Assembly (NCBI GenBank): GCA_026874595.1
Contig: CM049313.1
Coordinates: 64,362,159-64,426,158, forward strand
Reading direction: 5' to 3'
DNA length: 64,000 nt
Source of the DNA: Sipunculus nudus
Taxonomy: Eukaryota > Annelida > Sipuncula > Golfingiida > Sipunculidae
Shown here one piece after another: positions 331 through 3,300 of the stretch. A program made the position numbers and the translations under genes. Under the pieces are notes generated by a model. It did not search any database. It was not told where the DNA came from and saw nothing but the letters and a program-made list of their open reading frames with translations. Each line of letters begins with the position of its first letter. Within the stretch, counting starts at the first letter, position 1.

Positions 331-3300
331 CTGTAATCTGTAATCAAAGCAAATGACTACAATAGAGCCTCAAGAAAAAAATCAATAACTAGCTTAATTT
401 TCAAGCTTTTACTTCCAAATTTCAGATTTAAACAAATTAAATATTTATGTTTACATGCTGTGAAAATTAAGTCAATGGTACTAACAGGAAAAAAACGTGC
501 CATGGTCAAAGTTGGGCAAAATTTAAGGTACTGATTTTATTTTTATGCTAATTACTTAAAAAATTTACAAAATTCAGATCTAATTTTGGGTAAACAATTG
601 AATCTTAATTAAACATAGTTATATACTTGGGAAAATAGACTCTAGTTTCAAAATTTTTCATGTTAAGTGAGTAAATATTTTTCCTGATTTTTTACAAAGT
701 CCATTATGTTTGGGCCCATAACTTAAAGAATTTATACTTAACAGACTTAATTTCTGGCATGTCCATAGGAACTATATAGAAGAATATTTATGGTAAATAT
801 GAGGAAAAACAGATGAGTGGTTTTGATATTAGGCAGTCCTGAAGTGTGAAAATAGGATTTTAATAAAAAATTGAGGTTTTTCCCTAATTTCTCAAAGGAA
901 TGAAGTCGCAAAGACCCAGATTTCGGCTTGGTAGGAGATCTTGGGGACATCTAACATTATGCTGAATTTTGGATTCCTAGGTCTTACGGTTTCAAAACGT
1001 GCCACATCTACGGACGGACGGACGGACGGACAGACGGACGGACGACGGACAATGGACCACCACTATAGCTCAGATGACTTATAGTCAGCTGAGCTAAAAA
1101 TAGTGAAAAAAGAGTAATTATTATACCATTCAGGAAAATCCTTAAAAAAGAGTGATTTGGCAGGCCTGTTAACAAGTACTATATCACTTAATAATAATAT
1201 TACCAATTGTTAAATACTTAAATACATTTGTTTATATGATTGACAGTAAAGCCTTATGAGAAGCAGGGAGTGATGGTGGTTGCCATACCGACAGGATTAG
1301 ATTTTAGTTTGAACATTCACATAGATTCTTTGTTACTAGTTTCTCAATAACAGCCTAATGTTAAGATTATCATCCATATCACACAGTAATGTTGCTGTGA
1401 TAGAATGGAGAGTCACGGACACCTTATTGTGTGGTCAACATGGTCATGCTACATTCATTCTGTGCCTCCTTTCATTGTCTTAACTAGCATCACCACCAAA
1501 TAGTTGGCACAGAGCCAAGAGGGTTCTGACCAAGGAGAGCTTGAGAATCCCATAATATTTTACAGTATGTAATCTTCTAGATGGCAATATATAACAAACA
1601 TTGATAAAAGCAGTTGTTAAGTGGAATGAGTTACAAAACAAATGTAGCAGGACCACTCATTAAGGACAGTAGGACAGCCACAGAAGCGCAATTTTTTATA
1701 TGACTCAAGTCATGACTCAAAGTATGTCATATTGGTCTAATTTGAATGCTTCATGTTTTCACAAAATGGACTGTTTCCAATGACATTCTTAAAAAGTTTG
1801 TTAATTAGCAGATAAATAATTTTCCTTATAAACTTTGCAAATAAAGTGTATTTAACGATGTAAACTACACTGAAGTTTACTGAGTTGCTTTTGAAGTATA
1901 ACAGTACTTTGAATCTGTAAAACTTTAAAACTGTAAGCCTATGGAATACCATATTTTATCTCAGTGATATCATAATATGATCTGTCATATGTAATAGAGT
2001 AATACCATACCACTATTTCCGGGCTTTCCTTAACTTTGGCTACAACTTCTTCTAATGATGGAGCAGAATAAGGTGGCCTCCCATATAAGCATTCTGAAAT
2101 AAACAGAAAACTCAAAATGATATGTACTGTAATGGTTATAATTCAGGCCCCACTCCTAACAGAGGACTTCTGATATATTTCTAAATTCAATAGCGTAGTT
2201 CCCTAATATGGACTTACCTTCAAAAATTTTACTCTGGTACAGCTTGTGTTATCTATGGTAATTTCCATCACCTCTGACCAACAAAGTTTCCTTGATACTT
2301 CTCCCAAATTTATTTCCTAAGAAGCTCAAATGTAGCTTTTATAACATAGGTTACACTCACTGTGTAGTGATTTTTGATAATTTGAATCATGTAAATCTCA
2401 CATCACAATATAAATACATAAATTTTATGACTCACCGAATATTATATGATAATCTGAATCTTACATGACAATATAAATACATACACTCTATGACTCACCA
2501 AATAAAATTTGATAATTTAAATTAGTAAATCTCACATGACATTATAAATACATAATTTTTCGACTCACCAAATATATGATAATTTGAATCATGTGAATCT
2601 CACATGACTATATAAACAAATAAATGTTAATAACTCACCAAATAGTATTACTCCTACAGACCAGAGATCAGCTTTCGCATTATATCGTCTTTCGTGAATT
2701 ATTTCAGGTGCCATGTAAAGAAGTGATCCCACTAAGAATGGTGTATTTTTGTCCTTGTCCCCACGCAGGATATGGGAAAACCCAAAATCTGTAAAAAAAG
2801 GAGGGAAAAACAGTCCACATTTGTACAATTTTGTTTACTATTCATAGCCTTCAATATTAATTAACTGAATTAACATTTGCTAAGTTATAATTTGGTCAAG
2901 ACTATTTTAAAGTATAAAACAAGAGATAACCATAACTCACCTAAAATTCTCATAAATTGAAATTAACAGTCCCACATTGAAAGTTGCTTGTACCTGGTAT
3001 TAATACACAAAAACTGTGAAATGTTACAGTACTAGAACCCATCACATAACAAAACCCCCATCTTGACAACACTTCTGCATATCGTACAGGGCAAACAAAG
3101 CCTGATCTCCAATTCTGCTGTGGCAGGAAAATAATGAACAAATGTTTGAATTAGATCCTTGTTTTATTATCAAATCATTTTTCAAGTTTATATTAATAAA
3201 CAATTTCAATATAATCTATATATAGATCTATATAAAAATTTATTCATAATTCTAAATTGCATCATCATAAATCTGAATCAGATAACACCACATCATGCAT

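Follow-up and report, generated by a model that had tools for sequence, protein, structure and literature searches.

Tandem copies of a donor-bearing segment at the exon 5/intron 5 boundary of ULK3 in Sipunculus nudus

The ULK3 kinase gene of Sipunculus nudus carries four head-to-tail homologous copies, beyond chance, of a segment that includes a 5' splice donor, and the copies lie at the boundary of exon 5 and intron 5. All positions given here are those of the window, the whole stretch of 64,000 nucleotides that was analyzed. We consider it likely, at roughly 70%, that the array reflects an old and near-neutral tandem duplication across the donor, in which the first donor (donor 1) is the one used, while the downstream copies, here called decoys, are silent or used at a low level and their products are decayed. 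This reading joins four observations (the copies, their boundary, their equal donor score and a common stop) to a predicted choice of donor, predicted decay and presumed near-neutrality.

The ULK3 gene model

Part of a ULK3 kinase gene occupies the minus strand of the window. A fragment that joins five exons, numbered 2 to 6 as in a first-pass annotation of the same DNA, is recognized as a Pkinase domain (E 1e-55), and its best PDB match is human ULK3 (6fdy, E 2.4e-73). The runner-up matches among solved chains are ULK1 (3.5e-49) and ULK2 (1.3e-45), making ULK3 the closest of the ULK kinases with structures and bearing out the gene identity first proposed.

Exon 5 ends one base into a codon. 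Joining the donor at 2638 to the acceptor at 2094 yields kinase sequence, and the alignment to human ULK3 is gapless across the exon 5/6 junction; the donor at 2638 is therefore the kinase-making donor. Intron 5 is 545 nt long. Intron 4, from the end of exon 4 near 15640 to the start of exon 5 at 2788, spans nearly 13 kb. GC content is 40% in exon 5, 24% in the array part of intron 5 and 34% in the remainder of that intron.

Table 1. Features at the exon 5/intron 5 boundary of ULK3 (a slash marks a splice junction or its counterpart; the boundaries of copy 1 were drawn by eye)
Feature	Position	Strand	Basis
ULK3 exon 5, 150 nt, encoding DFGF...	2639..2788	-	Frame, acceptor TTTTTACAG/ATTTTGGG, joined translation
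Repeat copy 1, with donor GTGAGT at 2638 and the 6 exonic nt before it (TATTTG)	2575..2644	-	Repeat alignment
In-frame TGA met if donor 1 is skipped	2589..2591	-	Translation; upstream of every decoy
Repeat copy 2, decoy donor at 2568, 9-mer TTGGTGAGT as in donor 1	2505..2574	-	Repeats, donor score
Repeat copy 3, decoy donor at 2498, 9-mer TTGGTGAGT as in donor 1	2442..2504	-	TRF, repeats, donor score
Repeat copy 4, decoy donor at 2435 (TCGGTGAGT)	2371..2441	-	Similarity fades at about 2371
Fifth GTGAGT	2355..2360	-	Local alignment no better than shuffles
Near-consensus pseudo-donor AAG/GTAAGT, outside the array	GT 2216..2217 (site 2208-2222)	-	Score 12.46 of a possible 12.63
ULK3 exon 6	2011..2093	-	Acceptor TTTCAG, AG ending 2094; putative 3' end at 2011

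A repeat unit that crosses a splice site

On the minus strand, GTGAGT occurs at 2638, 2568, 2498, 2435 and 2360, with offsets from donor 1 of 70, 140, 203 and 278, none of them divisible by three. These positions and offsets, the acceptor at 2094 and an in-frame stop near 2589 had all been listed in the first-pass annotation and were all recovered from the sequence. Five of the ten GTGAGT hexamers on the minus strand of the 64-kb window fall within this stretch, and the rest of the window holds at most two per 300-bp stretch on either strand. Between 2094 and 2660, where five hexamers are present, 2000 dinucleotide shuffles average 0.25 and never exceed 3; self-similarity at lags of 55-80 scores 39, whereas the highest score among 1000 shuffles is 14. 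These shuffle figures are uncorrected for the choice of the stretch, which the annotation had named. There are two families of direct repeats, of 36 nt and of 13 nt (the latter GACTCACCAAATA on the plus strand), each with four copies at a spacing of 63-71, and TRF reports only 2394-2516 here (period 63, two copies).

A chance cluster of a common hexamer would be in keeping with the plus strand of the window, where GTGAGT occurs at chance frequency (13 against 12.9 expected from 30 shuffles). However, the self-similarity and the hexamer count both exceed all shuffles, and two repeat families with four copies each are present. The shuffles refute a chance origin for copies 1-4, a refutation that does not cover the site at 2360, and we assign this explanation next to no probability.

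The homology of the fifth site is a separate matter. The stretch around it is 42-50% identical to the four copies, and 1879 of 2000 shuffles align to copies 2-4 equally well or better. Its spacing (75) is about that expected of another copy, and it is possible that the site is a decayed fifth copy. An array of five copies was accordingly rejected in favor of one with four homologous copies, and the earlier proposal that a donor-carrying segment had been amplified inside its own intron stands for these four, on the strength of their self-similarity, and lacks support for the fifth. In aligned units, identity is 83-85% among copies 2-4 and 68-75% between copy 1 and these three.

The sequence TATTTG/GTGAGT (TATTTGGTGAGT) is identical in copies 1-3 and differs by one base in copy 4, so the repeat unit crosses the edge between exon 5 and intron 5, as had been suggested. 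The common ATTTG/GTGAGTCA context ascribed to all five sites is looser than claimed, being preserved as TATTTG in copies 1-3 but appearing as TATTCG in copy 4 and TACACA at 2360. The two bases that follow GTGAGT are TA in copy 1, CG in copy 2 and CA in copies 3 and 4. Beyond the 6 exonic nucleotides, the exon has no clear similarity to the repeat, and its codons, given the amino acids, are not unusually repeat-like (28 of 144 synonymous versions match equally well or better). The shared exonic part, at about 6 nt, is too short to prove the direction of copying.

The short exonic similarity and the ordinary codon choice are also what would be expected if the array belonged to a dispersed satellite or transposon whose end happens to fall at the exon, rather than being copied from the local donor segment. 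Against this, the window holds no other convincing copy of the array, the best match (41 nt, 76%, E 0.016) having been rejected as a dispersed copy, and we regard such an origin as very unlikely.

Copy 1 also contains a perfect 8-bp inverted repeat, TCATGTGA-GAT-TCACATGA, at 2589-2607 on the minus strand, which overlaps the in-frame stop. By eye, it is imperfect in the other copies, and it could form a hairpin.

Tandem repeats in the surrounding DNA

Tandem arrays with a period of at least 10 cover 8082 of the 64,000 bases (12.6%) in 29 merged TRF arrays, including that of ULK3, so contact between an array and a splice site should occur occasionally and is no great surprise. The longest TRF array in the window (22346-25275) repeats a 288-bp unit about 10 times with 92% matches, and another, within ULK3 intron 4 (4429-5791), repeats a 180-bp unit about 7.6 times. 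Intron 4 further contains long, overlapping open frames on the minus strand at 7889-11714, which likely represent a mobile element. One of them (8514-9995) has a weak reverse-transcriptase match, at 25.1 bits against a Pfam cut-off of 29.6, and the frame at 7889-8461 has no reverse-transcriptase match in Pfam. A reverse-transcriptase fragment (RVT_1, E 5e-9, above cut-off) lies on the plus strand at 19505-19987.

Donors of equal score and the predicted choice among them

Donors were scored with a matrix of human donor frequencies, which ranks sites only roughly in this animal. By this measure, the donors of the units are comparable in strength: all four copies score 8.68, with copies 1-3 sharing one 9-mer and copy 4 equal in score. 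Across the window, 32 of 3316 minus-strand GT sites score at least 8.68. With the same 9-mer in three of the four copies, donor strength alone would not single out donor 1.

Context provides two possible distinctions. Firstly, GC content in the 50 nt upstream is 38% for donor 1, as against 24, 16 and 22% for the in-array decoys, 26% for the site at 2360 and 32% for 2217. Secondly, T occupies 14 of the 24 positions from +7 to +30 after donor 1, compared with 10, 11 and 12 after the in-array decoys and 7 after 2360; inside the array, this difference in U content (14 versus 10-12 of 24) is small. The context of donor 1 would fit exon definition. RNA folding of the array, in turn, is nothing special (z -1.05; matched by 17 of 100 shuffles), and a special fold was rejected; in the window as a whole, no Rfam family reaches its gathering score.

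We therefore describe the favored reading, tandem duplication with use of donor 1, as follows. A segment of about 63-75 bp, comprising the donor, the start of intron 5 and no fewer than the 6 final nucleotides of exon 5, would have been duplicated in tandem to four copies, which subsequently diverged. The spliceosome most likely picks donor 1, perhaps because it alone adjoins an exon, whose composition is ordinary, and has the most U-rich stretch after it; the decoys sit in a very AT-rich intron. The decoys would be silent or used at a low level, and any product, bearing the common early stop, would be directed to nonsense-mediated decay.

Alternatively, the decoys could act as unspliced U1 sites, recruiting U1 and thereby strengthening recognition of exon 5 after an intron of about 13 kb. 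The 7-mer GGTGAGT matches U1 by pairing, three or four further copies of it lie just 3' of the donor, and the length of the preceding intron would suit such a role. Donor 1, however, scores well already, and we hold this explanation, too, to be highly improbable.

The strongest candidate donor of the intron is not part of the repeat. The site at 2217, which the first-pass annotation missed, outscores all array donors and every other GT site in 2000-2900. Since it lies beyond the array and is the highest-scoring site in intron 5, strong pseudo-donors are not peculiar to the repeat. If it were used, the intron ahead of exon 6 would shrink to 124 nt, and the site could be either the end of a cryptic exon or a silent pseudo-site. 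There are 42 AGs in 2060-2700, of which 14 were listed as having at least 10 pyrimidines in 17; the AG at 2317 has 11 of 17, compared with 12 of 17 for the real acceptor at 2094. An acceptor at 2317 paired with the donor at 2217 would delimit a 99-nt exon whose frame stops after 22 codons. One at 2274, below the pyrimidine cut, would delimit an exon of 56 nt that is open but causes a frameshift. A candidate exon running from either acceptor to 2217 would be a poison exon.

One stop for all decoys

That decoy use would truncate the kinase in its C-lobe had been argued partly from offsets that are not multiples of three. The offsets are irrelevant, as the in-frame stop at 2591-2589 precedes all four decoys, the first of which (2568) lies downstream of it; the stop itself upholds the predicted truncation, with 16 residues added before it when donor 1 is skipped. 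Because all four decoys and the site at 2217 lie beyond this TGA, use of any of them would give one identical truncated reading frame. The suggestion of a graded supply of inactive ULK3 consequently falls away, and what is left of it is, at most, one class of decay isoform. A decoy-spliced mRNA should be a decay target because exon 6 lies downstream, as do, we infer, further ULK3 exons outside the window.

The common early stop and the equal donor scores would also suit a regulated switch, in which factor-dependent downstream donors send ULK3 mRNA to decay and so tune its level rather than generate graded proteins. A downstream decay donor is a known design: exon 18 of Hps1, under Ptbp1, is described as having an upstream donor that gives full-length mRNA and a downstream donor that gives a decay target (PMC4222953). 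ULK3 would share this arrangement of competing 5' splice sites, its downstream donors being predicted to be decay-coupled. However, the Hps1 sites differ in strength and their regulation by Ptbp1 has been shown, whereas the ULK3 sites score equally and are not known to be regulated. A single decoy would, moreover, suffice for such a switch, with extra decoys leaving the product unchanged.

Divergence of the copies and signs of selection

Copies 2-4 differ pairwise at 9 of 59, 9 of 67 and 11 of 63 aligned sites (about 15%), so the array is not a fresh expansion and looks old. At the rate seen among these copies, the probability of no change in the three decoy hexamers is 0.24, so the survival of the decoys needs no selection; the probability of at most one change in the 27 donor positions is 0.37.

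Over copies 1-4, only 5 of 73 overlapping windows, the donor 9-mer included, vary as little as that 9-mer, which places it among the best-kept windows and counts in favor of a regulated switch. The constraint on copy 1 as a real donor may account for part of this count. Among copies 2-4 alone, 18 of 73 windows vary as little and the 9-mer stands out less; conservation of the decoys does not clearly exceed that of the repeat around them, and there is no firm sign among these copies of selection for or against them. On balance, we judge a regulated switch unlikely.

Relation to described systems

Turri, Cuin and Porter reportedly described, in 1995, a minisatellite in human IFI6 (G1P3, 6-16) that provides multiple splice donor sites. 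ULK3 resembles it in having tandem repeat units that each carry a donor, those of ULK3 being predicted from sequence. The IFI6 unit is short, at 12 nt, in contrast to the 63-75 nt of ULK3. A later paper that cites the work (PMC4526556) states that two of the downstream units also act as donors, which allows three mRNA species; the IFI6 isoforms differ, whereas the ULK3 decoys share one early stop.

In human genes of recent duplication, internal tandem repeats at the boundaries between exons and introns can also change splicing (PMC2812944). The ULK3 repeat likewise sits at an exon-intron boundary, but the human repeats can form novel introns and are often polymorphic, whereas in ULK3 an existing intron was lengthened and the copies look old. 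In Drosophila, tandem duplication of proto-splice sites is presented as a source of new introns (PMC2891723). ULK3 shares with these cases, and reportedly with those of PMC4974935, a tandem duplication that copies a splice signal; there, AG/GY in coding sequence gives rise to a new intron, while in ULK3 donors were copied inside an existing one. The kind of arrangement is already known from human genes, and the ULK3 array would, by its anatomy, be a further case.

Implications for splice-site choice

An array of equal donors could in principle be a decay valve or a U1 recruiting platform, through which the balance of splicing factors sets the survival of ULK3 mRNA. We consider this quite improbable; if true, copy number would set the gain.

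Laboratory constructs exist in which equal donors compete, and the ULK3 array would be a natural counterpart, with the same 9-mer at three of its four sites, one functional product from one site and one early stop from the others. As such, it could reveal to what extent splice sites in this animal are chosen by position and context as opposed to donor strength; otherwise, it would be an ordinary case of repeat growth at an intron edge.
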